A stretch of 64,000 bases of DNA. It comes from Calliopum simillimum. Its lineage: Eukaryota > Arthropoda > Insecta > Diptera > Lauxaniidae. The notes below the pieces were generated by a model, which saw nothing but the letters and a program-made list of their open reading frames with translations, was not told the origin of the DNA and searched no databases. Where the stretch lies: positions 74,434,422 to 74,498,421 of the forward strand of contig OX638368.1 of NCBI GenBank assembly GCA_951812925.1. Direction: 5' to 3'. Positions 5,943-57,666 of this stretch are shown here, in pieces. The translations under genes and the position numbers were made by a program. The stretch's first letter is position 1, and each line of letters begins with the position of its first letter.

Positions 5943-6967
5943 CGAAAACGCTCCTTTAAGACCTATAATATCTTGTGTTAATTCACCTAATCATTCGCTG
6001 GCCAGTTTTCTTTATCAAAAACTTAAAAATATTTGTCTTGCACCTGCTTCTCATGTTAACAATAGCTTTGAATTAAAAGAAAAATTGAAAAATTTCAATA
6101 TTCCACAAGATTATGTCTTACTATCACTTGATGTCTGTTCTCTATTCACTAATATTCCGTGTGAACTAGCTATTCAAAGTCTTGATAAACGTTGCACCCA
6201 TATTATTGACAATTGTAATATTCCATACTGTGATATTATTGAAATCACAAAGTTCCTTTTTAACAACACGTTTTTCTCCTTCAATGGAAAGTTTTATCAT
6301 CAAATTTTTGGCACCCCAATGGGTTCTCCGATATCCCCATTTTTTGCTGATTTATGCATGGACGACTTGGAAAGAAGTTGTTTGGGCATATTAAAAAACT
6401 TATACAATTGCGATGTCCTTTTTTACTTCAGATATGTCGATGATACGTTACTTTGCGTTCATAAGGAATATATTGATACTGTTATTAATGTTTTCAATTC
6501 ATATCATGAAAAACTTCAATTCACGTATGAACTTGAAAACAATAATAGAATCAATTTTTTGGATTTAACTATCATTAGAAAAAACAACCGACTTATTACA
6601 GATTGGTATCAGAAACCTACATATTCTGGGAGAATTCTGAATTTCAAATCTAACCATCCCATCAACCAAAAACGTAATATTGTTTTTAATTTAGTAGACA
6701 GAGCTGTCTCACTTTCACATAAGTCTTTTCACAAAAAGAATATTATATATGTTAAAAGTTTGTTAACTAATAACGATTATCCGTTGCGGTTTATAAATGA
6801 TTGTATAACTGCAAGACTGAATGTCATTAAAACAAAAAAGAAAAAAGAATCAACAAATGAGTTGCAAAACTCTAAAAATCGTAATATGGTGGTGCCCTTT
6901 ATTAATAAAGCATTTTTTTCAAAGTGCAAACACACTTTAAAAAATTATGATTTAGGCACAATTCCAA
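5943..6967 (+). pseudogene. Penelope-like reverse transcriptase, partial (copy 1)
   Basis: The frame opens in the fingers region (ENAPLRPIISCVN) and runs through the palm motifs SLDVCSLFTNIP, GTPMGSPISPFFADL, RYVDDTLLC with the catalytic Asp pair, and NFLDLTI, then WYQKPTYSGRILNFKSNHP, a Penelope-family signature. The N-terminal roughly 300 residues present in copy 2 are missing. The frame reads on into the DINE insertion after 6967, adding meaningless residues. The element would copy its RNA at a target site primed by the endonuclease; this copy is truncated and interrupted and should be inactive. Confidence 0.9.
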
Positions 6968-7583
6968 CTAGTAAGGGTGTAAGGGTGCAGTATTTTGAAA
7001 AGTTTGCTTATATGGGAGGTGCCACGCCCTCTTGTCCGAGTACACCCAGTTTTTGTTCAGAGCTTGCATTTATAGTTTTTAGTGTCAGAGTGAAATTTAG
7101 TTGGATTATCTCAAAAAACTCTTTCAGTATAGCATTTTGAATCTTTTGCTTATATGGGAGGTGCCACGCCCCCTTTGTCTGATTTCACCCAATTTTTGCT
7201 GAGAGCTTTCATTTATAATTCTTAGTGTCTGAGTCAAATTTGGTTCGAATATCTCAAAAAACGCTTTCAGTATAGCGTTTTGAAGCTTTTGCTTATATGG
7301 GAGGTGCCACGCCCTCTTGTCCGAATTCGCTCAAATTTTTATTAGAGCTTGCGCTTACAATTCGTAGTACTTATATGTATTGTGGTTGCATTGTCGTGAA
7401 AAATACTCCTAAAATTGCATTTTGAATATAATTTTTGTATGGGCGGTAGGCGTGTCCGTTGACCGATTTTGCTCATTTTCAATCCCCCGAGCTAACTTTG
7501 ACGACGGAGGCAGTGTACCAAATTTCATTGAATTATCTTGCTCAGTTTTCCCAAAAAGTGTATTTCAACACACAGCCAGCCAC

Positions 7584-7647
<64 letters not shown>

Positions 7648-7781
7648 ACAGACGGACATGGCTATATCGACTCAGGAGGTGACGCTGATCAAGAATATAT
7701 ATACTTTTCTATACCTGCCACGCCTCCTTCTCTGCGTTACAAACGGAAGGACAAAGTGAATATACCCTGGGTGTAGGGTAT
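6968..7781 (-). mobile_element. DINE-1/INE-1-like element in Penelope copy 1
   Basis: Inserted in the Penelope frame; copy 2 shows the intact target (CCAAAAATTAAG). The right end reads CCCTGGGTGTAGGGTATA, the complement of the TATACCCTACACCCAGGG start seen at 10508 and 49232. Next to it are a CAGC microsatellite and a conserved GACGGACATGGCTATATCGA block typical of fly DINE-1/INE-1 elements (non-autonomous Helentron relatives). The left half is made of roughly 130-bp repeats carrying GGGAGGTGCCACGCCC. The left end is CTAG, but the terminal hairpin present in the other copies is missing. Confidence 0.7.
7572..7655. repeat. CAGC microsatellite
   Basis: About 20 copies of CAGC, or CCAG in another register, inside the DINE-like element. 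A central microsatellite is usual for DINE-1-type elements. The reading frames across it (poly Ser-Gln-Pro-Ala) are repeat artefacts. Confidence 0.9.
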
Positions 7782-7787
7782 AAAAAT

Positions 7788-8121
7788 TAAGAAAACTTTG
7801 AACCAGATTGTAGTTCTAGGCAAGGATCCAACAGAAAAATGGGAAAAAACTGGTGTTGTTTATAAGCTTTGTTGCAACAATTGTAATGCTGTCTATTATG
7901 GGGAAACCAAGAGAAGTTTAAAAGAACGCATAAATGAACATAAACGAAACAAAGATCCCGATCATGTTATTTACAATCACATTGTTACCAATAAACATAC
8001 TTTTGATTTTCAAGGTGTTAGAATTGTAGATAGTGATAAAAACAACATTAATAGACAGGAAGATGTTTGTAAATTAAATAACACCTACAAACGGCTATTA
8101 CAAAAAAACTTTCAATCTTAA
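7788..8121 (+). pseudogene. Penelope GIY-YIG endonuclease domain (copy 1)
   Basis: Downstream of the DINE insertion the frame resumes and encodes a GIY-YIG endonuclease: VVYKLCCNNC (the GIY strand with the Cys cluster typical of Penelope endonucleases), then AVYYGETKRSLKERINEH (YIG strand plus the conserved Arg helix), and a HTFDFQGVRIVD strand. In Penelope-like elements this domain follows the reverse transcriptase and nicks target DNA. The frame ends at 8121 with a Lys/Asn-rich tail. It is separated from its reverse transcriptase by 0.8 kb of inserted DNA. Confidence 0.85.
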
Positions 8122-8472
8122 AAAATAAAAATAGAAGTTCATATTAATTATATTAAAATTTTTGACTACCAGTGTAACTACTGTGAAATGTACGGTTTAT
8201 TAGCTGATGGTTGAGAATAGTTTTTTACTCTTATACATTTCAATGTTTTTTATATGTCTCTTGTTGATACACATTTTTTGATGTTGCTTTACATGTTTCT
8301 TTAAACATTTTATTGTTCACTCTTGGTTATGTTAAGAATAACTTTAATATTACTTACTTTTAATCAGAGGTCTGTGTCACTGTTTGACATTTGTGATTTT
8401 TTCAAGATTTTTTTTGTAATAATTTTGTAAGCTTTGTGCGATTAGTGTTAAAAAATATTGTATTGATTTAAC

Positions 8473-8541
8473 TATTGTATATTTATAGTGTAAACCTGAT
8501 GAGGTCAACGATTTGTTGACGAAACGTCGAAAAATATTAAA
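8473..8541 (+). ncRNA. Hammerhead-ribozyme-like motif in Penelope copy 1
   Basis: Core CTGATGA (8496-8502), stem II TCAAC/GTTGA around the loop GATTT (closed by G8503-C8520, with G8504 bulged), then GAAACGTC (8521-8528). ACGT can pair with itself, giving a palindromic stem III as in short-stem type I hammerheads; cleavage would follow C8528. Stem I is weak: only one closing pair, then possibly AUAUUU (8480-8485) with AAAUAU after an internal loop. Hammerheads are known from Penelope-like elements, which supports the call; the bulge and weak stem I lower confidence. Confidence 0.55.
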
Positions 8542-8624
8542 GAAAATTAAAATTAATGCACTAGTGTTTTAATAACCTAGGCAAGTTTGCTCCAACAGAT
8601 CGAACAAAAACAATTTAATCAATA

Positions 8625-10507
8625 GTGGAGAGCAATATTCTTCCAAATAATAATTATTCCGGACTTAGATCAGAGTCAGTCCAAAATACTACATCAACAC
8701 AAACTACTGAAAACTTTTTCTACTTGATATCACAACAATACGGAATTGTTAAAACATCGTTGTTCAAAAAATACATGAAATTCAACCAACAACTAGCACT
8801 AGCTGTAAGTCGTCGACATTTTCTTTTACGCTGCCGAACTGAACAACTTCTTCCAAGTCATCTTAGAAGTATTTCCAATTCTATGAATATGAGAACTTAT
8901 TATAGCAAGTTCTGTAAAAAACTACACTATGATTCCTTAGAAAAATTTAAATGGAAATTGCTAAATCTTGAAATTAAGGATATTAATATTCATATAAAAT
9001 TTTTAACCTCAAAACTGAACAAAAATAAGTTACTTTTAGAGAAGACTAACATAGAAAATTATCTTTTGACGGATTTTTTTGAAAATAACTTGACATATTT
9101 TTCTAATATAAAAGAAAGAAACCAATCTCAACTCATCAGAAAATTCAATAGTCTCCAATCAACAAGTTTATATGGTAACAATATGGTTAGTAATAGAAAC
9201 TTGAATAATAGAAACAGGGATAATTTTTTTACGAATTTGAGTGACATTACAGTGCCCGATGCGGTTATTGATGTTATATCTCTTGGTCCAAATTATAGTC
9301 AGTCTACAAACATGTCAAAACTAGACACTATCAATGCGGTTAAAAACTTAGAATCATCTCTAGAATCTGTGCAATTAAGTTTTGAACGGAAGTGTGATAT
9401 TCGAGAAAAAATGGTCAACAATATTCAAATTGCATTACACCAAAATGTACACCAAAAATCCACAATAGAAGGTAGAGATTTCTTAAAAAATTTAAGGGCG
9501 ACAAAAACTTTTTTAAAAAACAATGATGACATTTTTTTCACAGTTGCGGACAAGGGTAACCAAAGCTAATTTACTTCTGAATGACACCACAGTATATAAT
9601 CAAATAAACAAGAATCCTTTAAAAAGACTGCAAACTGAAGTCAAAAACTTCTTCATTGACTTAAATGACAAAGGTTTCTTGTCGAACAAGTTTCACAAAA
9701 ATGCTCTTTCTCAGACAGACACCTCATTGCCTAAGTTTTACGGTTTACCAAAAATTCATAAGGAAAACGCTCCTTTAAGAACTATAATATCTTGTGTTAA
9801 TTCACCTAATCATTCGCTGGCCAGTTTTCTTTATCAAAAACTTAAAAATATTTGTCTTGTACCTGCTTCTCATGTTAGCAATAGCTTTGAATTAAAAGAA
9901 AAATTGAAAAATTTCAATATTCCACAAGATTATGTCTTACTATCACTTGATGTCTGTTCTCTATTCACTAATATTCCGTGTGAACTAGCTATTCAAAATC
10001 TTGATAAACGTTGCACCCATATTATTGACAATTGTAATATTCCATACTGTGATATTATTGAAATCACAAAGTTCCTTTTTAACAACACGTTTTTCTCCTT
10101 CAATGGAAAGTTTTATCATCAAATTTTTGGCACCCCAATGGGTTCTCCGATATACCCATTTTTTGCTGATTTATGCATGGACGACTTGGAAACAAGTTGT
10201 TTGGGCATATTAAAAAACTTATACAATTGCGATGTCCTTTTTTACTTCAGATATGTCGATGATACGTTACTTTGCGTTCATAAGGAATATATTGATACTG
10301 TTATTAATGTTTTCAATTCATATCATGAAAAACTTCAATTCACGTATGAACTTGAAAACAATAATAGAATCAATTTTTTGGATTTAACTATCATTAGAAA
10401 AAACAACCGACTTATTACAGATTGGTACCAGAAACCTACATATTCTGGGAGAATTCTGAATTTCAAATCTAACCATCCCATCAACCAAAAACGTAATATT
10501 GTTTTTA
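8625..10507 (+). pseudogene. Penelope-like N-terminal region and reverse transcriptase (copy 2)
   Basis: The first frame (to 9569) holds the Penelope N-terminal region with an ITVPDAVIDVISLGPNYS segment and ends in the conserved FTVADKGNQ motif, where a frameshift occurs. The second frame (overlapping, from 9523) continues with FYGLPKIHKENAPLR, SLDVCSLFTNIP, GTPMGSPIYPFFADL and RYVDDTLLC, and reaches the DINE insertion at 10508. In the first frame a stop codon directly precedes the GTG at 8625, so the true start may be a downstream ATG. The catalytic residues of the reverse transcriptase are intact, but the protein cannot be made in one piece. Confidence 0.88.
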
Positions 10508-11333
10508 TACCCTACACCCAGGGTATATTCACTTTGTCCTTCCGTTTGTAACGCAGAGAAGGAGGCGTGGCAGGTATAGAAAAGTACATATATTCTTGAT
10601 CAGCGTCACCTCCTCAGTCGATATAGCCATGTCCGTCTGTCTGTCTGGCTGGCTGGCTGGCTGGGTGGCTGGCTGGGTGGCTGGCTGGCTGGCTGGCTGT
10701 GTGTTGAAATACACTTTTTGAGAAAACTGAGCAAGATAATTCAATGAAATTTGGTACACTGCCTCCGTCGTCAAAGTTAGCTCGGGCGATTGAAAATGAG
10801 CGAAATCGGTCAACGGACACGCCTACCGCCCATACAAAAAATATATTCAAAATGCAATTTTAGGAGTATTTTTCACGACAATGCAACCACAATACACATA
10901 AGTACTACGAATTGTAAGCGCAAGCTCTGAGAAAAAACTGAGCGAATTCGGACAAGAGGGCGTGGCACCTCCTATATAAGCAAAATCTTCAAAACGCTAT
11001 ACTGAAAGCGTTTTTTGAGATATTCGAACCAAATTTGGCTCAGACACTAAAAATTATGAATGAAAGCTCTCAGCAAAAATTGGGTGAAATCGGACAAAGG
11101 GCGTGGCACCTCCCATATGAGCAAAAGATTCAAAATGCTATACTGAAGGAGTTTTTTGAGATAATCCAACTAAATTTCACTCTGACACTAAAAACTATAA
11201 ATGCAAGCTCTGAACAAAAACTGGGTGTACTCGGACAAGAGGGCGTGGCACCTCCCATATAAGCAAACTTTTCAAAATACTGCAGTGTAGGGTATTTAGT
11301 TTTTGGCCAGGCCAAAAGTTACACCCTAACTAG
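10508..11333 (+). mobile_element. DINE-1/INE-1-like element in Penelope copy 2
   Basis: Begins TACCCTACACCCAGGGTATA, a small hairpin-forming end, carries a CTGG microsatellite at 10635-10702 and roughly 130-bp repeats with GGGCGTGGCACCTCC, and ends in CTAG (11330-11333). A perfect hairpin TTTTGGCC-A-GGCCAAAA (11301-11317) lies 12 bases before the end, as in Helitron/Helentron 3' termini. Its orientation and site differ from the copy in the neighbouring Penelope element, so the two are independent insertions. TTA is present on both sides. Confidence 0.75.
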
Positions 11334-11815
11334 TTAATTTAGTAGACAGAGCTGTCTCACTTTCACATAATTGTATAACTGCAAGACTGAATGTCATTAA
11401 AACAAAAAAGAAAAAAGAATCAACAAATGAGTTGCAAAACTCTAAAAATCGTAGGATGGTGGTGCCCTTTATTAATAAAGCATTTTTCAAAGTGCAAACA
11501 CACTTTAAAAAATTAGGCACAATTCCAAAAATTAAGAAAACTTTGAACCAGATTGTAGTTCAAGGCAAGGATCCAACAGAAAAATGGGAAAAAACTGGTG
11601 TTGTTTATAAGCTTTGTTGCAACAATTGTAATGCTGTCTATTATGGGGAAACCAAGAGAAGTTTAAAAGAACGCATAAATGAACATAAACGAAACAAAAA
11701 TCCCGATCATGTTATTTACAATCACATTGTTACCAATAAACATACTTTTGATTTTCAAGGTGTTAAAATTGTAGATAGTGAAAACGACTACAAAAAAAGA
11801 TTACTGTCTGAGTGA
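11334..11815 (+). pseudogene. Penelope linker and GIY-YIG endonuclease (copy 2)
   Basis: After the DINE insertion the Penelope sequence resumes (TTAGTAGACAGAGCTGTC). It lacks 80 bp relative to copy 1 and then encodes the linker and the GIY-YIG domain with VVYKLCCNNC and AVYYGETKRSLKERI. The frame ends early at 11815 because of a short sequence near 11785 not found in copy 1; the lost C-terminal tail can still be read further down in another frame. It is interrupted and therefore a pseudogene. Confidence 0.85.
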
Positions 11816-12252
11816 TAAAAACAACATCAATAGACAGGAAGATGTTTGTAAATTAAATAACACCTACAAACGGCTTTTACAAAAAAACTTTCAATCTTAA
11901 AAAATAAAAATAGAAGTTCATATTAATTATATTAAAATTTTTGACTACCAGTGTAACTACTGTGAAATGTACGGTTTATTAGCTGATGGTTGAGAATAGT
12001 TTTTTACTCTTATACATTTCAATGTTTTTTATATGTCTCTTGTTGATACACATTTTCTGATGTTGCTTTACATGTTTCTTTAAACATTTTATTGTTCACT
12101 CTTGGTTATGTTAAGATCTAACTTTAATATTACTTACTTTTAATCAGAGGTCTGTGTCACTGTTTGACATTTGTGATTTTTTCAAGATTTTTTTTGTAAT
12201 AATTTTGTAAGCTTTGTGCGATTAGTGTTCAAAAATATTGTATTGATTTAAC

Positions 12253-12321
12253 TATTGTATATTTATAGTGTAAACCTGATGAGGTCAACGATTTGTTGAC
12301 GAAACGTCGAAAAATATTAAA
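12253..12321 (+). ncRNA. Hammerhead-ribozyme-like motif in Penelope copy 2
   Basis: Same core as at 8496: CTGATGA at 12276-12282, stem II to 12300, GAAACGTC at 12301-12308. The core is unchanged between the copies although other parts of the elements have diverged. The same caveats apply: a bulged G in stem II and a weak stem I. Confidence 0.55.
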
Positions 12322-12677
12322 GAAAATTGAAATTAATGCACTAGTGTTTTAATAACCTAGGCAAGTTTGCTCCAACAGATCGAACAAAAACAATTTAATA
12401 AAATAAATATAATTTTTGTACGAACGAAGGACTCTTGTGGGTCATGTAATCAGAACGGACGCTATAGCAGTACTAAGTCAAAAATAACAAACATGTTGAC
12501 AGTTTTGCTTCTTACTGTATATACATTAGGGCTGTTAAAAAAAAAAAAAAATTCGAATTTCTTGCTGAAGCAAAAATATATTTTTATTATTTTTATTTTT
12601 AGAATTAATTATAAAATGTTGTCAAACAATTTGAAAAATTTGTTTTAGAGTAATTTAGAAACATTCATTTTGTTTAA

Positions 12678-13092
12678 CTAGCTGCCAACAAATCACGTGT
12701 CAAGTGGTGTTGTGGTGTGTTTTTGAGTAAAAACTCCAACATTATATTGCGCTTTGCAAGAAAAGTATAATATCAACGACTTACAAACAGAGGGGCGATG
12801 CATAACAGGGGAAAAAACAATAAATTAGAACTTTGCATATGCTGCATTGAATTTTTTGCTGTGATTCTCGTCTAATCTATGCAAAAAATGAATAAAGCAT
12901 GCTTGGTCGAGTTCTTGGTTTGCAGGTGAATTCGACTGAAGATCCCATATGGTTATGGGTGAAACGTATCGAAAACCAACCTACCAACAATTTTTTGGTT
13001 TTTTTACCTATGCATTTTGCCTTGTTTTTGTAATGTTGGAACAGTAAGCTCACACCACAAAACCACTTGTCACGTGATTTGTTGGTAGCTAG
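12678..13092. mobile_element. TTAA-flanked foldback MITE
   Basis: Long inverted repeats start CTAGCTGCCAACAAATCACG on the left and GGTAGCTAG on the right, each bordered by TTAA (12674-12677 and 13093-13096). TTAA target sites are used by piggyBac- and Kolobok-type transposases. Related copies lie at 32818-33055, 33060-33490 and 59273-59870, so this is a multi-copy family. No coding capacity. Confidence 0.8.
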
Positions 13093-34681: not shown

Positions 34682-35016
34682 TAATGCCTAATCGGCGCTA
34701 AATCTAACTATTAAATAGGAATTGTTTTTGTACATGCGATATATATAATAATAAAAACAAACTTATGCCAATTTTTTTTTTTTTTTTTTGGTTTAATATG
34801 TATTCTCGTTGCATTTTTGTATATAGTGCTCTTAGATAATGTTTTCACTTTTTAATGTCCTTTAACAGATTTAGCTTATTATCTTATTCTTTTCGTTTTT
34901 AATCACCCGAGCTCAATTTTGGAATGCCGACAAAGTATAAAGTTTCACTGAATTATCTTGCCTTGTTTAACAGTGAAATAATTTCAAAATACGGACGGAC
35001 ATGCTACATCGACTTA
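34682..35016. other. Diverged DINE-like fragment
   Basis: Includes CACCCGAGCTC, TTTCACTGAATTATCTTGCC and ACGGACGGACATGCTACATC, which correspond to blocks of the DINE-like elements at 6968 and 10508. Too eroded for borders. Confidence 0.45.
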
Positions 35017-37085
35017 TAGTCTAGGTGCCAGGCGACACATTGTTCTACTCATACATAACAGCTTATAACTTTTAGGATAGCTTAATTATACCTAGACCCC
35101 CAAATATCTTAATTATACCTAGACCCCCAAATATCTCTTGGGAAACTTTCTGAATCAGGGGCTTTTCCTCTCCAGCTTTTCCAAAAGTGGTCAATTTGAA
35201 GTGGTGTACCAAATTTATTAATAACATATTGCTGTTTAATGAATTCAAAAGTCGACTTCGTGAAATATCCGAAAAAAACTTGTCCGACAAAAATTTTAGT
35301 TCCATAAGGGTGTCTGCCAAACTAAACAAGCCAAAAAAATGACTTAAAAAAATTTATTACTAACAAGCTGATTTTTTCAATATCGTTTAAAAATAACGTG
35401 CAAAATAATATTTTCACATTGTCCGACACAATATACTTGCCGGTTTTTCCGTCCGACAGTGAAAATCGGCTTTTCCACGAGTTAGTGGAAATTTATTAAT
35501 AACTGTCGGACAAAAAACAAATTAGATTTGTGAAAGGCTTATATGCTTAATTGAATGTGTGTCCGACAAATATAATGCAACCAAATTGCAGTCCGACAAA
35601 AAAGGCAATTTTTTTTATATATTAAATCTATCTAAAGTTCAGATTTTACGCAAAGCTTAAATTTTATTCATAACCGTCGGACTATATACAAAGATAATTT
35701 TTTAGATAATAATTCAATGTTTAATACTATTGGTGGAAAAATCAAGTGGTGCGGGAGCGCCCCATGGCAAGCATAAGTAGATAAATACAATATTTCAATA
35801 TTTATCGTTTTTCAAGCATAACAGAATTTTATTGTAGGTTTTTATAAATAAAGTTTAGAGTACAGGTAATCCTCGTTATAAGCGTTTATTAACTAATGAA
35901 TTGCATAAAAAGCAATCCATTATTTTTTTTAATATAATTTCGTAAAATACATTAAAAGTATTAAAACACGTGCTACACTACAATACCAATGATGCATCAA
36001 CGCATTTCTCGAGTTGGAGCAGCGTGGGTATACATTAGGGTGGGCCGATTTGAAAACTGATCTCGGCTACTCCCCTATGTGAAAGTTCATTCAATTCTGT
36101 GAATATTTGCCCTAAGAACTATATCTCTGCGTTCAACTTTAGTTCGGCGCATTTTTGATCGAAAATTGCACCTTTCATCAATATTTTTTTTTGTTTTCAT
36201 ACTAAATTTTAAAAATTTTTATAAAGACAAAAGTAATGTCATTATATGATTTGGCTGGTATTCTGTCATTAAACAATTAAATTGAGTTCTTATTACATAA
36301 AAAGTTCACTTGATAAAGTGGAATTGATGCTATATATTTAAAAAAATGATATGGGTCAAATAGCCGATTATTATGACCGACTTTCAAAATAAACGATTCA
36401 TATTTTTGGATGAATTTTTTCAAACAAAATACCAACCTAGGCTGAAAGTTCATTCAATTCTATGAATATTTGCCCAAGGAACCATATCTCTACGTTCAAC
36501 TTTAGTTCGGCGCATTTTCAATTGAAAATTTTACCTTGCGTTCAATATTTATTTTTATGCTTAGTTTTCAAAATACCTATAGAGACAAAAGTAATATCAT
36601 AATATGTTTTGGCTGGTATTCTGTCAGTAATCAAAAAAATTGGGTTTCGTTTTACGAAAAGTTTACTTGATAGCGTGGAATTGATTGTATTTATTCCAAA
36701 AAATTATATCGGTCAAATAACCGATTTCAAAATAAATGAGTTATATTTTTACATGGATTTTTTCAATCGAAACACCAACCCAAGTATTTTTGGATGCTAG
36801 GATGCCGAATCTTACACTCATTTTTTTCTAGGGCAACATCTAGTGGCAGTTTTAGGAAGTAAATTAGCCGCTTTTTTAATTTTACAGAACAATATACCAA
36901 AAATCTATGTAAAAATATGAATCGTTTATCATAAATATATATAATTTAACCTATATAATTTTTTGATTTTTTATTTAATTGAACTTTTAGTCATATATTT
37001 GCAAAGATCGATTTACATATAAATCTATCAATGCATTTTTCTAACACATAATTATGACAAATCAAGGAACGGATTAAAAACACGG

Positions 37086-37134
37086 CTATAGTGACATATG
37101 TTTCGTCTTTCGCCACAAAGACTCATCAGACTAT
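37086..37134 (-). ncRNA. Hammerhead ribozyme, copy A
   Basis: All conserved parts are visible on the minus strand: stem I ATAGT (37134-37130) pairing with ACTAT (37092? downstream of the cut, 37090-37086 side); core CTGATGA (37129-37123); stem II GTCTTT/AAAGAC around the loop GTGGCG; GAAA (37104-37101); and stem III ACATATGT, a perfect palindrome, followed by C (37093), after which cleavage is expected. The palindromic stem III is too short for a hairpin, so cleavage probably needs a dimer, as in other short-stem type I hammerheads. The conserved core has no deviation. Confidence 0.85.
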
Positions 37135-37224
37135 TTTTGTTGTAATTATAATTATATTTATTTTACTAAATTAATTATAATTGAAAAATTGCAAGTTTGA
37201 AAACTTTTTGTGTTTTTGGTCTGG

Positions 37225-37292
37225 GCGGGAGACGAACCAAGGATCTCCAGGTTGGTAGCAGAAGTCGTTACCACTGCACCAGCCTTGCCCGG
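37225..37292 (-). promoter_or_regulatory. tRNA-like Pol III promoter of SINE-like copy A
   Basis: A box TGGTGCAGTGG (37281-37271) and B box GGTTCGTCTCC (37238-37228) are spaced about 32 bases apart, as in tRNA genes. GGGC near the 5' side can pair with GCCC after the B box. It does not fold into a standard tRNA with a clear anticodon arm, so it is read as tRNA-derived. Confidence 0.7.
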
Positions 37293-37367
37293 CTGCGAAG
37301 CCGACTTTTTGCCAGTTTTATTTGTGTGTTAATACGTATTGATATATCATAATTGTTGTTTTGTGTT

Positions 37368-37417
37368 ATTTATTGATATTTGGTATAGTTGTTCCTTTGG
37401 AACAAATTCAATACCGA
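37368..37417. repeat. 50-bp perfect inverted repeat around SINE copy B, left
   Basis: Exact reverse complement of 37814-37863 (TCGGTATTGAATTTGTTCC...). The pair brackets SINE-like copy B and about 100 bp of other sequence. Confidence 0.9.
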
Positions 37418-37511
37418 TTGCAGGTGTTTCCACCTTATCAGGGCATGTTCTCCCAAATAACTTTAAGAATTTTTTTTAAGTGTGTTACTTAATGACATTT
37501 TATATTGAAAA

Positions 37512-37816
37512 TTGATTTTTTATTTAATTGAACTTTTAGTCATATATTTGCAAAGATCGATTTACATATAAATCTATCAATGCATTTTTCTAACACATAA
37601 TTATGACAAATCAAGGAACGGATTAAAAACACGGCTATAGTGACATATGTTTCGTCTTTCGCCACAAAGACTCATCAGACTATTTTTGTTGTAATTATAA
37701 TTATATTTATTTTACTAAATTAATTATAATTGAAAAATTGCAAGTTTGAAAACTTTTTGTGTTTTTGGTCTGGGCGGGAGACGAACCAAGGATCTCCAGG
37801 TTGGTAGCAGAAGTCG
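37512..37816 (-). mobile_element. SINE-like element with hammerhead, copy B (5'-truncated)
   Basis: Homologous to copy A from the tail to the middle of the tRNA-like head. The head is cut at AGAAGTCG before the A box, where it joins a 50-bp inverted repeat with a 3-bp overlap TCG. The B box is kept (37787-37777). The hammerhead and tail are preserved. Truncation on the promoter side fits retrotransposition. Confidence 0.75.
37635..37683 (-). ncRNA. Hammerhead ribozyme, copy B
   Basis: Identical to copy A over all core and stem positions, shifted by 549 bp: CTGATGA at 37678-37672, stem II GTCTTT/AAAGAC, GAAACATATGTC, and flanking ATAGT/ACTAT for stem I. Confidence 0.85.
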
Positions 37817-37863
37817 GTATTGAATTTGTTCCAAAGGAACAACTATACCAAATATCAATAAAT
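37814..37863. repeat. 50-bp perfect inverted repeat around SINE copy B, right
   Basis: Partner of 37368-37417. It adjoins the truncated tRNA-like head of copy B. Confidence 0.9.
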
Positions 37864-39127
37864 AAATATAATCAATTCCACGCTATCAAGTAAACTTTTC
37901 GTAAAAACAGAACTCAATTTTATTATTTACTGACAGACTACCAGCCAAAACATATTATGATATTACTTTTGTCTCTATGAGAATTTTGAAAATTAAGCAT
38001 AAAAATAAATATTAAACGCAAGGTAAAGTTTTCAATTGAAAATGCGCCGAACTAAAGTTGAACGTAGAGATATGGTTCCTTGGGCAAATATTCATAGAAT
38101 TGAATGAACTTTCAGCTTAGGTTGGTATTTTGTTTGAAAAAATTCATCCAAAAATATGAATCGTTTATTTTGAAAGTCGGTCATAATAATCGGCTATTTG
38201 ACCCATATAATTTTTTTAAATATATAGCATCAATTCCACACTATCAAGTGAACTTTTTATGTAATTAGAACCCAATTTAATTGTTTACTGACAGAATACC
38301 AGCCAAATCATATAATGACATTACTTTTGTCTTTATAAAAATTTTTAAAATTTAGTATGAAAACAAAAAAAATATTGATGAAAGGTACAATTTTCGATCA
38401 AAAATGCGCCGAACTAAAGTTGAACGTAGAGATATAGTTCTTTGGGCAAATATTTATAGAATTGAATGAAATTTCACATAGGGGGGTAGCCGAGGTCGAT
38501 AAAATTTCCTCCATACAATTTGGCCCACCCTAGTATACATATATAACGGTATTTTGGAGCAACATGTGCACACATACTTTCTAAAATGTGCGCAGGTACA
38601 CGCCGATAGGTATAATTTTGGAGTCCAAAGCAAAAAGAAGCGCGTAATTCAAATAATTTTAAAATTCCGAAGAGAGGACCTTAAAATTTCTATTACTGCT
38701 TTAAATAAGTTGATAATTTCTTTTCTAACAAATTATGATATAAAATTATGCTATTTTTATCATTCAATATGAAATTTAATTTTATATTATAATTACCATG
38801 CAAACGGAGTAGACGTGTTTTTAAGCGGCTGCAAATCAACGCAATATAGTCATACGTAAATAATTCCAATTATCTTGAAAAAAAGACGACACAGATACAA
38901 CTATTATCGCAACGATTTCTGGAAGAATTTTTGATTTTTATACGCAATTTTCATTTAATTTATCGATATTAACTAAGATTTCTGGTTTCTGATAAAAGTA
39001 AAGTAGAAAGCAACAAAATAATAAAATTCTCCGAAGTGCATCGAACAGTGTAAAGCAACAAACCATACCTGCAACTCCGACTGGATCTAACAATGCAAAG
39101 GTCAGTAACTCATCATTTGGATCGCCC

Positions 39128-40146: not shown

Positions 40147-42978
40147 ATGTTTAGTTTAAATTCTACTATCAATACTGACGAAAATAATTTAAAGACCGTT
40201 TTAAAGTTGGTAAGTGAAAATCATAAAGGGCTGCAAATTTGTCATTTGAATGCAAGAAGCTTAAATGCAACAAAACTCGACTATTTGAACTATGTATTTG
40301 AAAGTTTGTGTATTGATGTTATTTGTGTTACAGAAACATGGTTCAAGAACGATTTTGATGACGCCACATATGCTCTAAGTGACTATTTGCTTGTTAGGAA
40401 TGATAGGAAATCGTGTACAAGAGGTGGAGGGATTGCTATATACTACAAATAATATTTGCAGCAAAAGATTGTTTTCAAATCGAGTAGTAGTATGCAAGTT
40501 GAATTTGTTATGCTTGAAATAGGTGATAGTATCAGTAAAACTTTAGTCGTTTGTGTATATAATCCTAATAAGTTATATGATATGAGTTGTTTTTTTGAAA
40601 AATTGTCCGAGTACGTGATACTTTATGAGCATATAATAATGTGTGGTGATTTTAATATTGATCTTTTGCATAAAGATGCGAAGTCCGTAGAATTTTCTGA
40701 TAGTATTGCTTCATTAGGCTTAAATATTGTAAATGAGTTTGCCACACGATTTTCTCCAAACTGCACGCTAAGCTTGCTTGATCTGTTTTGTGTTGCTGAC
40801 AACTCGAAAGTACTTCATGTTGACCAATTTTCTTTGGCTGGTGTTTCCGACCATGAAATGTTATTTCTCTGCTACAATGTTGATTTTTCTAAATATCAAA
40901 ATGAAACACACTTTTGCTACAGAGACTTTAAGAGAATCAATGTTGTAAGCCTTCTTGAAGAATCAAGAATGACTCCATGGAATGAATGCTGGTTTTTTGC
41001 TTCTATCAATGAAAAAATTGACCATTTGACATTTCTCGTGAATTATTTTTTTAATAAATATGTACCATTAAAAAGAATAAAAATAAAGAACAAGAAATAT
41101 CCTTGGTTTACAGATGAAGTTCTACGGGTAATAAAGGATAGAAATAAACTTCATTCAATATGGAAAAATAATCCAGATAATGTAAATTGGGAAGCTTACC
41201 GACGATGTAGAAATAAGGTAACAATCACAGTTCGTAATTCAAAGAGATCGTACTTTAAGTCCAAACTTGATGTCAAATTATCACCTAAACTGCTTTGGAA
41301 TAATTTAAAATCTATTGGTGTGGGAAGCAAAAATAGTCCGGATTGTTCCATAGATCCCAATATAATGAATAATTATTTTTTGTCAAGTTTTCCAACAGAT
41401 AAGGGATCATCGTTCATAATGAATGAGCAATGCGAGTGCAGTTTGGAACCAAAATTTAATTTTATGACAGTAACTGAAGACGAAGTAGTAAAAAGTATCT
41501 ATGCTATCAAATCTGATGCGACGGGGCATGAAGGAACTAGCCTCAAGTTTATAGAGATCATTCTTGGTAGTATTATTGCTTGCCTTACTCATATTTTTAA
41601 TTTTGCTATAACAGCATCTGTGTATCCAGAAACTTGGAAGATAGCAGATGTTACACTAGTTCCTAAAAGAAATAATGCGACTCTGCCTCAAGATTTTCGA
41701 CCGATTAGCATACTTCCCGTTCTCTCAAAGGCGTTTGAAAAGATCTTGACACGCCGAATTATGATTCATTTAGATCAAAACAATTTGCTCACAGAATATC
41801 AGTCTGGTTATAGATCGGGACACAGTTGTGCAACTGCCGTTCTGAAAATTTTAGATGATATACGTCCTGCATATGATAGAGATGAGCTAACCATTTTGGT
41901 TTTGTTGGACTTTTCAAAAGCTTTTGATGCAGTTAAGCATAAATTATTATTAAAGAAATTAGAAAACTATTTTGGTTTTGGTTCCAATGCAACCAAACTT
42001 TTAAAAAGTTATTTGACTCATAGACAACAAAGAGATATAATAAAGAACTCATATTCTGAATTGAAAGAAGTTACGTCCGGCGTCCCGCAAGGGTCAATTT
42101 TGGGACCCATACTATTCAGTATATTTATAAATGATATAGTTTATTGTTGCAAAAGTGTTTCCATTCACCTTTACGCGGATGATGCTCAGGTCTGCCTTTC
42201 TAGACCTAGCGGACTCTGTGAGGACTTAATTGAAAGGGTGAATGAGGATCTATTTTCAATTTGTGAATGGGCCAAAAATAATAAATTGAACATCAACGTC
42301 CTGAAGACAAAGGCATTGCCCATTTCCCATTCTACTTATGATCTGGCAGACCTGTCAAATTTAAATATGATGGGAACTCATATTATGTTTGACAGTTCTG
42401 TTTTAAGTTTGGGTTTTAAAATAAATTCCAACCTAAGCTGCAGCGATCATGTGAACTATATGATATGTAGAATGTACAATGTTCTGAGGAAACTATGGCA
42501 TTCAGCGTCATTTGTGTCAGAAGATATTAAGCTGAAATTAATAAGAGCTTTGCTTGTTCCACTTTTAAATTTCGGTGAACTAGTTTACGGAAATTTGGAT
42601 GGTGGATCCAAGCAAAAAATTCAGCTAGTTCTTAATAATGCTGCAAGATATATATACTCTAAGCGAAAGTATGATCATATATCGGGTTATGCAATAAAGA
42701 TTCTAAATTGCGAATTGGTCCCATACTTAAATTTTAGAAACTTAATTTTTCTACATAGGCTCATATATGAACGTTGTCCTAAATATTTGTTCGAAAAATT
42801 AGTGTTTGCGCAATCAATTCGTACTAATAATTTAATTTTACCTATGTCCAAATTTTTAACGTCTCAAAGAATGTTTTTTGTCAGTGTTGTTAAACTGTGG
42901 AATTCTCTTCCAAGTGATATAAAATCCGAAAGAAGAAAAGCATATTTTAAATTGGCAGTATTTAGATTTTTATGTTAA
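40147..42978 (+). pseudogene. LINE 1 ORF2: endonuclease and reverse transcriptase
   Basis: 943-codon frame with a single in-frame TAA at 40450-40452. Endonuclease motifs: LQICHLNARSL, VTETWF, MCGDFNID and GVSDHEML. Reverse-transcriptase motifs: FRPISILPVLSKAFEKIL, LDFSKAFDAV, SGVPQGSILGPILF and the catalytic YADDA. C-terminal part with LLNFGELVYGN and KLWNSLPSDI. The only visible damage is the nonsense codon early in the endonuclease, so the element was active recently or is rescued in other copies. Confidence 0.9.
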
Positions 42979-43149: not shown

Positions 43150-43991
43150 TTTTTTCGATTGAAAATTTTACCTTGCGTTTAATATTTATTTTTATGCTTG
43201 ATTTTCAAAATTCTTATAGAGACAAAAGTAATATCATAATATGTTTTGGCTGCTATTCTGTCAGTAATCAATAAGATTGGGTTCTGTTTTTACGAAAAGT
43301 TTACTTGATAGCGTGAAATTGATTATTTTTATTCAAAAAAATTATATCGGTCAAATAACCGATTTCAAAATAAACGAGTCATATTTTGACATGGATTTTT
43401 TCAATCGAAACACCAACCCAAGTATTTTTGGATGCTAGGATGCCGAATCTGACACTCATTTTTTTCTAGGGCAACATCTAGTGGCAGTTTTAGGAAATAA
43501 ATTAGCAGCTTTTTTTAATTTTACAGAACAATATACCAAAAATCCATGTAAAAATATGAATCGTTTATAATAAATCGGTTATTTGACCGATATAATTTTT
43601 ATCATAGAATTGAATGAATTTTTAGCCTAGGTTGGTGTTTTGTTTGAAAAAATTCATCCAAAAATATGAATCGCTTATTTTGAAAGTCGGTCATAATAAT
43701 CGGCTATTTGACCCATATACTTTTTTAAATATATAGCATTAATTCCACACTATCAAGTAAACTTTATATGTAAACAGAACCCAATTTAATTGATTACTTT
43801 TGTCTTAATAAAAATTTTTAAAATTTAGTATGAAAATAAAAAAAATTTTAATAAAAGGTAAAATTTTCGATCAAAAATGCGCCGAACTGAAGTTGAACGC
43901 AGAGGTATAGTTCCTTGGGCAAATATTCATAGAATTGAATGATCTTTCACATAGAGGGGTAGACGAGATCAGTTTTCAAATTGGCCCACCC
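43150..43991. mobile_element. Partial second copy of the GGGTGGGCC foldback
   Basis: Matches the left-arm interior (36519 onward) and then the right arm of 36038-38530. It ends GGCCCACCC before TA (43992-43993). Its left part is missing; the LINE lies directly beside it. Confidence 0.7.
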
Positions 43992-44849
43992 TAATATGTA
44001 TATATATATAATAGGGTGCAACGAAAAATTTTTCAAAAGTATATAGGATATTAATAAATAAAAACGCTAGTTTTACAATTAAAAATAAAATACTCAATTT
44101 CAGTTCAAGGGTACGAAACGTGTCCGACTGAAAAATCGGAAAACGATTTTTGTCCGTCAATTCTACAATTGTATGCTACGATTTTTAATAAAACAACTTA
44201 GAAAAAATCAACTTGTTATTTATAAATAGGACGTCTACAACTTTAATGCTCATACATTCTATAAAAAAGTAATATCGACTGTACTTTTTGGAATTTTTAC
44301 ATAAAGTGCCCTATTTTTTTATCGGACAACTCATTCATTAAGTTGTACTCTTCATTTAAAAACTAAAAATCATAAAAAAACATTGTTATTAATAAATTTC
44401 CACTAACTCGTGGAAAAGCCGATTTTCACTGTCGGACGGAAAAATCGGCAAGTATATTTTGTCGGACAATGTATAAATATTATTTTGCACGTTATTTTTA
44501 AACGATATTGAAAAAATCAGCTTGTTATTACTAAATTTTTTTAAGTCATTTTTTTGGCTTGTTTAGTTTGGCAGACACCCTTATGAAACCAAAATTTTTG
44601 TCGGACAAGTTTTTTTCGGATATTTCACGAAGTTGACTTTTGAATTTATTAATAACAGCAATATGTTATTAATAAATTTGGTACACCACTTCAAATTGAC
44701 CACTTTTGGAAAAGCTGGAGAGGAAAAGCCCCCGATTCAGAAAGTTTCCTAAGAGATATTTGGGGGTCTAGGTATAATTAAGCTATCCTAAAAGTTATAA
44801 GCTGTTATGTATGAGTAGTACAATGTGTCGCCTGGCACCTAGACTATTA

Positions 44850-45090
44850 GGAAGTGAAGCTGATCGTGCTCCCTATATGCCTGTGGGTTTGCTTGGTAAC
44901 ATAGGTACTGAAAAAATAATAAATTACTTCAGATTTTTAAGTAAGTTGGACCAAATTAAGAGCTGGAATGACTTTTTCGAAAAAAGCAGACTAAACAGGA
45001 CACAAAATGTTCCTTGCACATCAAAATTGAAAACTCTAACGTCATTGCGTGAATAGGATGATCCGATAATAATGTGCTTATTAAATATAC
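44850..45090. other. Unassigned sequence
   Basis: A short region with an open frame of 81 codons starting in the repeat arm at 44811. No motif or family was recognised, so no function is claimed. Confidence 0.4.
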
Positions 45091-45580
45091 CATATAGGTA
45101 CGGTGACCATTTATTTGAAACTGAAATACAGAATGGAATTTGTATTTATTTTTTATCGTATTTCAATGTATATGTACATTAGTGTGAGCCAAATTTTCCC
45201 ACGACAAACCGTCTACCGGAAACGTAAACTACAGGATATTTTTCCAATAAACCATAGGTCTAAGATCAATATCAAGCTCCTACTTTTAACGAGAAGTTTT
45301 TTGTATCATGACTTTCATATATCAATCATTGGTTTTATCAGCTTTCTGAATCCATTGTTATCATGAACGATTTTTAATATTCAGGCCAAGTTTTGAACAG
45401 TTTTCTTGAAAAGTGGTCGAAAATTGTTGAAATAAGACCTTTCTGATCAAAAAACTAGAGCCAGCAATTTTTTTGATTGTAATCCAATGAACACAGCTGA
45501 TAGCAACAAGTGTACTTACATAAATAACAACAACAGTGTTATTTATGTGAGGATCTTTGACGAGGTAGATCGTTCCGTAG

Positions 45581-45650
45581 CGTGGCCTAAGTGGTAGAGG
45601 TCTGCTGCACTCTTTCATTAGAATGCAGAAGGCTGCGGTTCGATTCTAGT
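45581..45650 (+). promoter_or_regulatory. tRNA-like Pol III promoter
   Basis: TGGCCTAAGTGG and GGTTCGATTCT match the A-box and B-box consensus and stand 42 bases apart, within the range of tRNA genes. Between them CTGCACTCTTTCATTAGAAT with TGCAG can form an anticodon-arm-like hairpin. A standard tRNA fold was not obtained by eye. Confidence 0.7.
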
Positions 45651-45669
45651 AAGAAGCAAAGATTAACTA

Positions 45670-45753
45670 AAATAGGTCTGATGAGGCTATGTACATATAT
45701 ATATATGCAAATATATATATGTGTATATGCCGAAACATGTGTCACCAATTTCC
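45670..45753 (+). ncRNA. Hammerhead ribozyme, sense strand of the MAEA intron
   Basis: Core CTGATGA (45678-45684); stem II GGC/GCC extended by about 17 AT-rich pairs (45685-45731, loop ATGCAA); GAAA (45732-45735); stem III ACATGTGT (45735-45742), self-complementary with two G-U pairs; cleavage after C45743. Stem I: AAATAGGT with ACCAATTT, seven of eight positions paired. All invariant core residues are present. The very long stem II is unusual among hammerheads. The self-pairing stem III suggests dimer-dependent cleavage. Confidence 0.8.
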
Positions 45754-45761
45754 AAGTTAAT

Positions 45762-48238: not shown

Positions 48239-48978
48239 GGCTCCCTGAAATAACGCCATAGGAAGTAACGCCAAAACATTTTTTGGAAATAACGCCACAA
48301 AAATCTTCATACAAAATTTTGGCGTTATTTCCATTTTGTTTTGGAAATAAAGCCAAAAACTTTTCTGGCGTTATTTCCAAAACTGTGACGTTATTTCCAA
48401 AAATAATGTAGTTTAGAAAAAGGAAATAACGCCATAGGAAATAACGCCATAGGAAATAACGCCAAAAATTTTTTTGGAAATAACGCCAGAAATTTTCGGG
48501 CATTAACTTTTGGAAATAAGTCCAAAAACTAATTAGGAAATAACGCCAGAATGTTTGGAAATAATGCCATATGGCGTTATTTCAGGGAGCCAGGAAATAA
48601 CGCCAGAAAATTTTTTGGAAATAACGCCAGAAAAATCTGGATACAAAATTCTGGCGTTATTTCCATTTTGTTTTGGAAATAAGGCCGAAAACTTTTCTGG
48701 CGTTATTTCCTAGTTAATTTTTGGTTTTAATTTCAAAACAAAACGGAAAAAACGCCAGAATTTTGTATGCAGATTTTTCTGGCGTTAATTCCAAAAAATT
48801 TTCTGGCGTTATTTCCTTTTTCTAAACCATATTATTTTTGGAAATAACGCCAGAGAAATTCTGTCGTTGTTTTCTAATCAGTTTTTTGTTTATTTCCAAA
48901 AATAATGCCAGAAAATTTCTGGTGTTATTTCCAAAAATTTTTTAGGCGTTATTTCCTATTGCGCTATTTCCGGGAGCC
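48239..48978. mobile_element. Element with 9-bp target duplication built of GGAAATAACGCC repeats
   Basis: Termini GGCTCCCTGAAATAACGCC and its near-inverted partner are flanked by the perfect 9-bp duplication TATATTACG (48230-48238 and 48979-48987). The interior consists almost wholly of direct and inverted copies of GGAAATAACGCCAGAAA. An inner copy of the terminal phrase sits at 48566-48592. The 9-bp duplication suggests a MULE-like transposase in trans. Confidence 0.82.
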
Positions 48979-55065: not shown

Positions 55066-57372
55066 AATATCGAGAAGTATCGAGAAACATCCAAAATATC
55101 GATAAAAGTCTTAAAGTATCGAGAAACATCCAAAATATCGATAAAAATCCAAAAGTATCGAGAAACATCTAAAATATCGTTAAAAGTCAAAAAGTATCGG
55201 AAAACATCCAAAATATTGGTAAAAGTACAAAAGTATCGAGAAACATCCAAAATATCGATAAAAGTCCAAAAGTATCGAGAAACAGCCAAAATATCGGTAT
55301 GAGTCCAATAGTATCGAGAAACAACCAAAATATCGATAAAGGTCCAAAAGTATCGAGAAACATCCAAAATATCGATAAAAGTTCAAAAGTATCGAAATAC
55401 ATCCAAAATATCGATAAAAGTGCAAGAGTATAGAGAAACATCCAAAACATCGATAGAAGTCTAAAAGTATCGAGAAACATCCAAAATATTGGTAAAAGTC
55501 CAAAAGTATCGAGAAACATTCAAAATATCGATAAAAGTCCAAAAGCATCGAGAAACATCCAAAATATCGATAAAAGTCCAAAAGTATCGAGAAACATCCA
55601 AAATATCGGAAAAAGTCCAAAAGTATCGAGAAATATCCAAAATATCGGAAAAAGTCCAAAAGTATCGCGAAACATCCAATATATCGAGAAGTATCGAGAA
55701 ACATCCAAAATACCGATAAAAATCCAAAAGTATCGATGAAAGTCCAAAAGTATCGAGAAACATCTAAAATATCGGTTAAAGTCCAAAAGCATCGAGAAAC
55801 ATCCAAAATATCGATAAAAGTCCAAAAAAATCGATGAAAGTCCAAAAGTATCGAGAAACATCTAAAATATCGGTAGAAGTCCAAAAGCATCGAGAAACAT
55901 CCAATATATCGAGAAGTATCGAGAAACATCCAAAATACCGATAAAAATCCAAAAGTATCGAGAAACATCCAAAATTTTGGTAAAAGTCCGAAAGTATCGA
56001 GAAACATCCAAAATATCGATAAAAGTCCAAAAGTATCGAGAAACATCCAAAATATCGGTATGAGTCCAATAGTATCGAGAAACAACCAAAATATCGATAA
56101 AGGTCCAAAAGTATCGAGAAACATCCAAAATATCGATAAAAGTATCGAAATACATCCAAAATATCGATAAAAGTGCAAGAGTATAGAGAAACATCCAAAA
56201 CATCGATAAAAGTCTAAAAGTATCGAGAAACATCCAAAATATCGGTAAAAGTCCAAAAGTATCGAGAAACATTCAACATATCAGTAAAAGTCCAAAAGTA
56301 TCGAAAAACATCCAAAATATCGGTAAAAGTCCAAAAGCATCGAGAAACATCCAAAATATCGATGAAAGTCCAAAAGTATCGAGAAACATCTAAAATATCG
56401 GTAAAAGTCCAAAAGTATCGAAAAACATCCAAAATATCGGTAAAAGTCCAAAAGTATCGAGAAACATCCAACATATCAGTAAAAGTCCCAAAGTATCGAA
56501 AAATATCCATTATATCGATGAAAGTCCAGAAGTATTGAGAAACAGCCAAAATATCGATAAAAGTCTAGAAGTATCGAGAAACATCCAAAATATCGATAAA
56601 AGTCCAAAGGTATCGAAAAACATCCATTATATCGATAAAAGTCCAGAAGTATCGAGAAACATCCAAAATATCGATAGAAGTCTAGAAGTATCGAAAAACA
56701 TCCAAAATATTGGTAAAAGTCCAAAAGTATCGAGAAACATCCAAAATATCGATAAAAGTCCAAAAGTATCGAGAAACATCCAAAATATCGGTATGAGTCC
56801 AATAGAATCGAGAAACAACCAAAATATCGATAAAAGTCCAAAAGTATCGAGAAACATCCAAAATATCGATAAAAGTTCAAAAGTATCGAAATACATCCAA
56901 AATATCGATAAAAGTGCAAGAGTATAGAGAAACATCCAAAACATCGATAAAAGTCTAAAAGTATCGAAAAACATCCAAAATATCGATAAAGGTCCCAAAG
57001 TATCGAAAATCATCCAAAATATCGGTAAAAGTCCAGAAGTATCGAGAAACATCCAAAATATCGATAAAAGTCCAAAAGTATCGAAAAACATCCATTATAT
57101 CGATAAAAGTCCAGAAGTATCGAGAAACAGCCAAAATATCGATAAAAGTCGAGAAGTATCGAGAAACATCCAAATATCGATAAAAGTCCAAAAGTATCGA
57201 AAAACATCCATTATATCGATAAAAGTCCAGAAGTATCGAGAAACATCCAAAATATCGATAAAAGTCTAGAAGTATCGAAAAACATCCAACATATCGATAA
57301 AAGTCCAAAAGTATCGAGAAACATCCAAAATATCGACAAAAGTCTGGAAGTATCGAGAAACATCCAAAATAT
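55066..57372 (+). repeat. 39-bp minisatellite array, about 59 units
   Basis: Same unit and orientation as at 1-1666. Local higher-order structure is visible: the run around 55140-55700 recurs with small changes at about 55930-56300, and again around 56720-57000, including the shared variants GGTATGAGTCCAATAG and GTGCAAGAGTATAGAG. This indicates segmental duplication of multi-unit blocks. Long open frames on both strands are artefacts of the 39-bp period. Confidence 0.93.
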
Positions 57373-57666
57373 CAGAACGTCGACAGAGCGCAACGAAACT
57401 GGTTTCGTGCAAGCAAGGGAAAAACAACAACAACAGAATTTCTCTCACTCCAATGTGTCATTCACTTTCTTAACAACACAGCATTTGTTGTTGTAATTAT
57501 ATGGGAAACTTTGATTCTGTTTTTAAATACCTTAATGGCAACTTATGAGGATAATTTTTGGATTCGTGGATTCTACACTACAATACCTTTCATATAAAAA
57601 AAAATCGGTTAAATGGTTAGCTCGCAAAAGGAGGCAAAAAAAAAACTGTTCACGTATTTATATATA
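57373..57666 (+). repeat. Right flank of the minisatellite unit, copy 3
   Basis: CAGAACGTCGACAGAGCGC through TTCACGTATTTATATATAG, matching 1667-1985 and 13554-13868. It lacks about 20 bp (the CTCTGTGGGTG segment) present in the other two. Confidence 0.8.

Follow-up and report, generated by a model that had tools for sequence, protein, structure and literature searches.

Two hammerheads in a single insertion

Do two identical hammerhead ribozymes lying 549 bp apart on the same strand record two insertions of a short interspersed nuclear element (SINE), or one event of another kind? The question arises from a 64,000-nt stretch of the genome of the fly Calliopum simillimum (GenBank assembly GCA_951812925.1, contig OX638368.1, positions 74,434,422 to 74,498,421; hereafter the window), in which a first-pass annotation had described two copies of a SINE-like, hammerhead-bearing family. 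The locus is very probably the product of one retrotransposition event of a non-autonomous retrozyme of the metazoan type, with the protein of a Penelope-like element (PLE) as the machinery. What carries this reading is observed directly in the genome: a 549-nt unit and its copies, two internal start sites of reverse transcription and the way they are paired, target-site duplications, a covarying RNA pseudoknot, and equivalent ends in PLEs.

On the minus strand, 36963-37270 and 37512-37819 form a direct repeat of 308 bp (99.7% identity, 549 bp start to start) within an insertion of 903 bp (36963..37865, minus strand) that sits in an inverted-repeat host family; uninterrupted host sequence is visible by eye in a paralogue at 43152-43625. 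With the unit numbered from the predicted cleavage site (u1 = 37641 or 37092), one complete 549-nt unit runs from cleavage site to cleavage site at 37093..37641. The insertion comprises a direct arm of 854 nt, or 1.56 units, from u375 to u130 (36963..37816, minus strand) and an inverted 5' arm of 52 nt (u225-u276; 37814..37865, plus strand), which is 100% identical to the reverse complement of 37366-37417 and derives from the spacer separating the two hammerheads. This exact inverted spacer piece and the cyclic-unit layout led us to reject two independent SINE insertions; the annotated pair of copies 549 bp apart is real as a pair of identical hammerheads, which belong to a single insertion of 1.56 turns plus an inverted 5' arm. 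There is no open reading frame (ORF) of ≥110 aa within the locus and no long ORF for a reverse transcriptase (RT) or a GIY-YIG domain, so the retrozyme is a non-autonomous dependent rather than a PLE. In the surroundings, a large inverted repeat (91%; 35013-35503 / 44385-44850) encloses an ORF of a long interspersed nuclear element (LINE; 40456-42978) together with the retrozyme's host repeat.

Both type I hammerheads lie on the minus strand, at 37088..37134 (lower copy, predicted cleavage 37093/37092) and 37637..37683 (upper copy, predicted cleavage 37642/37641). They are canonical and identical, as had been annotated, with the core CTGATGAG at 37129 and 37678, stem II GTCTTT/AAAGAC, stem III ACATATGT, and stem I ATAGT/ACTAT in each. 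Rfam Hammerhead_1 scores 21.5 bits for each copy, below the gathering score of 34, and thus no hammerhead is listed at Rfam's own threshold. A scan for the core plus all three stems had no hits in the window beyond these two and was empty in all 150 dinucleotide-shuffled windows; its strict stem rules pass over the hammerheads at 45678 and in the window PLE (see below). Throughout the family, 65 of the 67 hammerheads matched by a pattern that demands the core and stem I are identical, and 69-73 unit copies cover those positions; there is too little variation among copies of the 549-nt family to show compensatory changes. The unit folds with minimum free energy z scores of -5.5 and -6.0, yet 3/53 control windows fold at least as strongly, which leaves the folding of the unit suggestive, and shuffles of the hammerhead stretch fold at least as well as the stretch itself (z +1.3). 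Also recorded by eye were a hairpin at u226-260 (37382-37416; GGTAT...TTGTTCCAAAGGAACAA...ATACC) and, within the spacer, a degenerate candidate for another hammerhead (CCCTGATAAGG...), the latter dropped as it overlaps the P3 region of the pseudoknot described below and has a broken core.

A recent, multicopy family

We searched 690,472,685 bases in 334 contigs of this genome, where a 358-bp query found at least 51 matches (best 40 of 1,472 candidates scored) and a 125-bp query at least 41 (best 40 of 738 candidates scored). The examined set comprises 34 fetched stretches, the window, and six further loci from the 125-bp query, or about 40 insertions; two matches at C2:76419258 and 76419812 (L045, L046) lie outside it. 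Because the query spans the cleavage junction, the first 34 stretches are biased to uncut junctions. Two of these stretches, L020 and L021, look like halves of one retrozyme insertion (C1:70272700-70280100) that another element seems to have interrupted at about u287-291.

In the 34 genomic stretches and the window the unit proves to be cyclic, and pieces of the same unit occur in all loci. Among arms of ≥60 nt in the first 35 loci, 51/57 are ≥98% identical to the window unit, the lowest value being 93.7%. Whole insertions (34 measured) span 402 to 3,129 bp; across the roughly 40 examined, lengths go from half a unit to nearly six, and the insert at C1:72457k is a tandem of 5.6 units. The 549-nt family is therefore real, multicopy, and recent. 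With about 40 insertions and 67 core-plus-stem-I matches, the repeat is neither confined to the window nor devoid of the ribozyme core elsewhere, and the dispersed copies bear out the earlier proposal of mobile, multicopy ribozyme elements rather than chance. Neither the exact element nor the head-plus-hammerhead pattern had a match in the viral_contigs collection, which holds no insect genomes; scans of genome_contigs, likewise devoid of insect genomes, gave 0 and 2 matches, those two in one archaeon and one bacterium.

Insertion scars at two internal start sites

The 3' ends of 70 arms fall into two groups, with 29 at u120-140, 29 at u169-191, 2 between them, and 10 elsewhere, such that 58/70 arms begin at one of two sites located about 50 nt apart and internal to the unit. 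Start site 1 of reverse transcription (u126-134) corresponds to 37508..37516 and start site 2 (u170-187) to 37455..37472, both on the minus strand, the latter immediately 5' of P3; the lower end of the window insertion, 36963, is u130. In an earlier subset, 50/59 ends fell within the zone u120-191, compared with 7.7 expected. These arm counts omit two 24-nt chance matches in L037, an edge fragment of L040, and L021, and the arms of the six later loci were entered by hand.

All 22 two-arm insertions are arranged head to head, with both 3' ends outward. Where both ends of a doubly primed insertion lie in the sites, one end is in each (15/15, plus 3/3 counted by hand, or 18/18), an outcome with a probability of about 4 in a million under independent draws with even odds; L032, whose ends at 172 and 143 lie on either side of a run of N, and the interrupted L060 are left out of this count. 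In 16/22 two-arm insertions the flanks have a word of 11-15 nt in common. Over 34 insertions the shared word averages 8.9 nt versus 4.5 nt when flanks are paired by shuffling (largest of 50 shuffles, 5.4), lengths that are approximate because words were allowed anywhere within the 22 nt of flank and 6 nt of arm that were searched, some of them being simple AT sequence. The flanks are 81% AT. Target-site duplications longer than 4 bp are thus present, as they are for metazoan non-LTR (long terminal repeat) retrozymes, and inserts that cross more than one junction require a multimer or a circle as template. These scars, scattered over AT-rich targets that are unrelated to one another, with their target-site duplications and favoured 3' sites, make it scarcely credible that the family spread by satellite-like tandem duplication or gene conversion instead of retrotransposition, a process for which the 5.6-unit tandem array at C1:72457k might otherwise be cited.

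The tRNA-like head and the SINE alternative

The A and B boxes annotated upstream of the hammerheads, with the A box lost in one copy, are recognizable by eye on the minus strand: an A-box-like TGGTGCAGTGG at 37271..37281, present only before the lower copy, and a B-box-like GGTTCGTCTCC at 37228..37238 and also at 37777-37787. The former fits the A-box consensus, and the latter departs from the B-box consensus by one mismatch. Between the B box and the hammerhead, TTTT and TTTTT runs (37184..37203, minus strand) are possible terminators for RNA polymerase III (pol III). Because they precede the hammerhead, it is doubtful that pol III reads through the ribozyme in the 549-nt family, and Rfam finds no tRNA match to the head of this family.

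These motifs are what an ordinary tRNA-derived SINE carrying a hammerhead and mobilised by a LINE could bring to the locus, in which case the two hammerheads would belong to neighbouring insertions and the inverted piece would have arisen by L1-like twin priming. The A-rich start sites and the LINE RT frames in the window are in keeping with such an origin. A SINE should, however, yield single-unit copies that all finish at a constant 3' terminus or tail, whereas we find cyclic, multi-unit inserts with two internal start sites, and most inverted arms have their outer ends in the same two sites, with one of each used where both ends lie there; the missing Rfam tRNA match and the T4/T5 runs before the hammerhead also argue against it. 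We therefore consider a SINE origin improbable, and the SINE-like nature ascribed to the family by the first-pass annotation gives way to a retrozyme in which both target strands are primed. Two internal start sites together with extension of both target strands, traits of PLEs, are what the genomic scars display.

A pseudoknot common to PLE leaders and the retrozyme

The window itself contains a PLE at 5944..12402 (plus strand) that has RT and GIY-YIG domains and forms a partial dimer, the cores of its minimal hammerheads being at 8496 and 12276; its 3' end lies about 94 nt past its cleavage site (counted by eye), just before a GGAGAGCAA motif. Its RT has at least 118 matches in the genome (a scored subset of 7,698 candidates), among which are many open frames above 700 aa, some in tandem. 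One of these regions (G000, C5:73389069-73392208) has two PLE RT frames head to head, perhaps a doubly primed PLE insertion, and another repeat lies inside the window PLE in both orientations (6986-7786 and 10502-11284). We examined 41 PLE regions, 40 fetched in two batches plus the window PLE.

Between the hammerhead and the ORF of many of these PLEs, beside the end sites, lies a pseudoknot in which a stem P1 (often GACC/GGTC) encloses a 4-nt strand that pairs, as P2, into a hairpin P3 of the pattern xGG A NNNN NNN CCx'. A script found it in 17/41 PLE regions; of the 17 regions in which a hammerhead was recognised, 15 have it. In an alignment of 15 rows (14 distinct), both partners vary in 9/11 pairs, pairing holds in 99.4% of cells, and none of 500 shuffles reaches the observed scores; the 100% pairing of P1 and P2 in part reflects construction, because the P1 strands and, in some rows, the P2 strands were picked to pair. 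Row L081 and P1 of L092 were set by eye, and the linkers in this alignment are filler. When downstream and upstream leader copies were compared in 10 PLE families, nine were informative (the exception being L078, where the match continued), and the element ends inside the P1 loop in 5/9 and 5-8 nt before P3 in 4/9. These ends are the equivalents of retrozyme sites 1 and 2.

The 549-nt unit carries the same elements in the same order as the PLEs and with its own compensated pairs, namely ATGAC/GTCAT, GTTC/GAAC, and GGG/CCC. On the minus strand of the window, the P1 5' strand ATGAC (u99-103) is at 37539..37543, the P2 5' strand GTTC (u109-112) at 37530..37533, the P1 3' strand GTCAT (u146-150) at 37492..37496, and P3 with the P2 3' strand, GGG A GAAC ATG CCC (u188-201), at 37441..37454; u197 is C in 33 of the 40 copies that cover it. 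Elsewhere in the window the pattern is matched in just two places, weakly at 27504 and in simple repeats at 48333-48957, where short repeats of GGAAATAACGCCA fit the P3 pattern as simple sequence.

On balance we lean toward a specific role for this structure, in which the conserved leader pseudoknot would serve the telomerase-like PLE enzyme as the element by which the RNA is recognised and the start is set; at least two ribozyme families, carrying the same knot, would parasitise PLEs, and the enzyme would hold two target strands at two fixed knot sites, whereby each doubly primed insertion would use one of each. According to the available sections of PMC12632851, the RTs of PLEs and telomerase share a clade, and a stem-loop or pseudoknot delimits the template in telomerase RNA. 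A deeper link between PLE and telomerase RNAs might be imagined by analogy and is speculation.

A second retrozyme family

The first-pass annotation had further held that the head-plus-hammerhead design occurs in two distinct families, and the element at 45575 indeed proves separate and multicopy, with at least 46 matches including the window copy, most of them 94-96% identical (best 40 of 668 candidates scored), among them several pairs arranged head to head as well as tandem pairs at a spacing of 607 bp. The window copy runs from u340 to u18 of a 607-nt unit (45483..45761, plus strand), with its core at 45678 and predicted cleavage at 45743/45744. The two units have the hammerhead region in common, including the same palindromic stem III, and otherwise a weak 36-nt match. 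Rfam finds no tRNA in the window copy; by eye its A and B boxes both fit, and upstream of its hammerhead there is no run of four T, which makes a pol III promoter more credible in the 607-nt family than in the 549-nt family.

The knot of the 607-nt unit pairs GACTG/CAGTC, GTTC/GAAC, and AGG/CCT, with T replacing the A of P3. The looser pattern that this family needs occurs in about 2% of shuffled retrozyme units (406/20,000 for the 607-nt unit and 445/20,000 for the 549-nt unit), and nine alternative knot solutions are listed for the 607-nt unit; position and end sites therefore carry the weight here. Arms end at u80 (L128) and u78, and one runs past u112 to the edge of its stretch (L129), which again corresponds to the P1 loop and the P1-P3 interval (two loci).

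Template, mechanism, and counterevidence

The lizard PLE PAc offers a precedent for the mechanism: its reverse transcription begins within the RNA, at two neighbouring sites that enclose a "tail", both DNA strands are cut and extended, and AT-rich DNA is preferred (PMC11167929). In the reading favoured here, the RNA unit of 549 nt, which has a tRNA-like head, a type I hammerhead, and its own version of the PLE-leader pseudoknot, would be bound by a PLE protein, as a multimer or a circle, through that pseudoknot. The protein would cut AT-rich DNA, and one or both cut strands would prime reverse transcription at the two internal sites beside the knot. The enzyme would then run around or along more than one unit and stop at scattered places or hairpins, and two arms, where made, would be joined head to head.

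Whether the ribozyme shapes the template is a separate matter, to which the 5' ends of the arms are relevant. Five of 70 lie within 3 nt of the cleavage site versus 0.8 expected (P about 0.001 if uniform; post hoc), and arms stopping there could be a trace of cleaved templates; this excess is only suggestive because arm ends also pile up at u260-273 (8/70), beside the hairpin at u226-260, as if that hairpin stalled the enzyme. Hairpins thus also seem to stop arms. A plausible variant, which we nonetheless judge the less probable course, is that the PLE machinery copies uncleaved linear multimers read through from tandem arrays, with the hammerhead a passenger and no circle formed. The 5.6-unit tandem insert is a possible source of such RNAs, the inverted arm of the window, coming from spacer upstream of a truncated unit, would be well explained, and PAc hammerhead mutants still insert in vitro (PMC11167929). 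Set against this are the identity of 65/67 matched hammerheads, tempered by the youth of the family throughout, the arms that stop near the cleavage site, and circular RNAs reported for animal retrozymes in the available sections of PMC7229834. In the favoured reading the hammerhead would cleave in vivo, and circles may form.

Several observations count against mobilisation of the retrozyme by PLEs and must be weighed with it. The full motif is absent in 24/41 PLE regions, including L081 and the window PLE despite their hammerheads; the other stretches lacking it probably miss the leader. The knot pattern was drawn from the very PLEs scored, with the inner P3 pairs fixed by the pattern, and the shuffle controls cover retrozyme units rather than PLE leaders. 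Taken by itself the knot is not improbable: the strict motif occurs in 114/20,000 shuffled retrozyme units, 81 of them with P1 ≥5 bp, although these counts ignore position and the real knot adjoins the start sites. The retrozyme has no clear homology to the 21 PLE leader regions compared, for which reason we name no PLE partner; the strongest similarity, 68% over 88 nt, is in AT-rich coding sequence (E 7e-6, low-complexity filter off). Among arm 3' ends, 10/70 are outside the two sites, including the inverted arm of the window (u276), which makes the window insertion atypical, its flanks sharing just 7 nt. The retained half of the broken insertion (u291) counts on the same side, while the omitted L021 half ends in site 2. 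Single-arm insertions (n=11) share flank words of ≤9 nt, the A-rich start sites could suit a LINE too, and the hammerhead may be dispensable, because PAc with a mutated hammerhead still inserts in vitro (PMC11167929).

Other repeats in the window

A two-copy repeat at 12936 (plus strand) and 59452 (minus strand) includes a possible minimal hammerhead, CTGAAGA...GTGAAACGTATCG or ATGAAACGTATCG. Arrays of a 39-bp satellite occupy 1-1666 and 55075-57373. The best-scoring named sequence among 120 listed relatives of the window LINE is from Ceratitis capitata (42% identity); other named relatives listed are from Phlebotomus and Diaphorina, and one is from an archaeal bin.

Comparison with known systems

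Retrozymes of this kind and the idea of help from PLEs are already known. In the available sections, PMC7229834 describes animal retrozymes that make circular RNA, mentions insects, and regards PLEs as a strong candidate partner, and PMC11722881 proposes LINEs or PLEs as retrozyme movers and retrozymes as reduced PLEs; according to PMC7761336, no motif reveals the retrozyme partner, and retrozymes seem to be without promoters. As far as we have read, the insertion scars, the knot, and the one-of-each-site rule are new. Titles and abstract openings of the literature searched yielded neither a PLE pseudoknot nor a demonstrated PLE-retrozyme partnership; the word "pseudoknot" is absent from PMC11167929, and its use in the available sections of PMC7761336, PMC11722881, PMC7936874, and PMC12632851 concerns RNAs other than PLE leaders. 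As to which autonomous element partners animal retrozymes, the scars and the covarying knot support PLEs. The one-of-each-site rule would newly constrain how PLE enzymes prime both strands, and this insect, having two recent families and numerous long open frames of PLEs, would make a good model.

Like the metazoan non-LTR retrozymes, as characterized in PMC7761336 and the available sections of PMC7229834, the C. simillimum elements are non-coding, AT-rich, partial-tandem repeats with a type I hammerhead, many copies, and target-site duplications longer than 4 bp. They differ in unit length (549 or 607 nt here versus about 170-400 nt in those same sources), in a tRNA-like head where the review sees no promoters, and in a PLE-type knot with start sites where the review sees no partner-revealing motif (PMC7761336). 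With PLEs, including PAc (PMC11167929), they share a hammerhead in a repeated leader, partial-tandem inserts, two internal start sites, and priming of both strands, and with the PLEs of this genome in particular they share the pseudoknot. In contrast to PLEs, the retrozyme is without an RT or GIY-YIG ORF and has no clear leader sequence similarity, and its hammerhead has an 8-nt palindromic stem III whereas PLEs have minimal hammerheads. Two further systems resemble it by description, in the available sections of the respective sources: schistosome SM-alpha, a SINE-like repeat with a type I hammerhead in another host (Ferbeyre 1998, as described in PMC8490949), and cave-cricket pDo500, an insect repeat with a hammerhead that is described as a satellite (PMC6155905).

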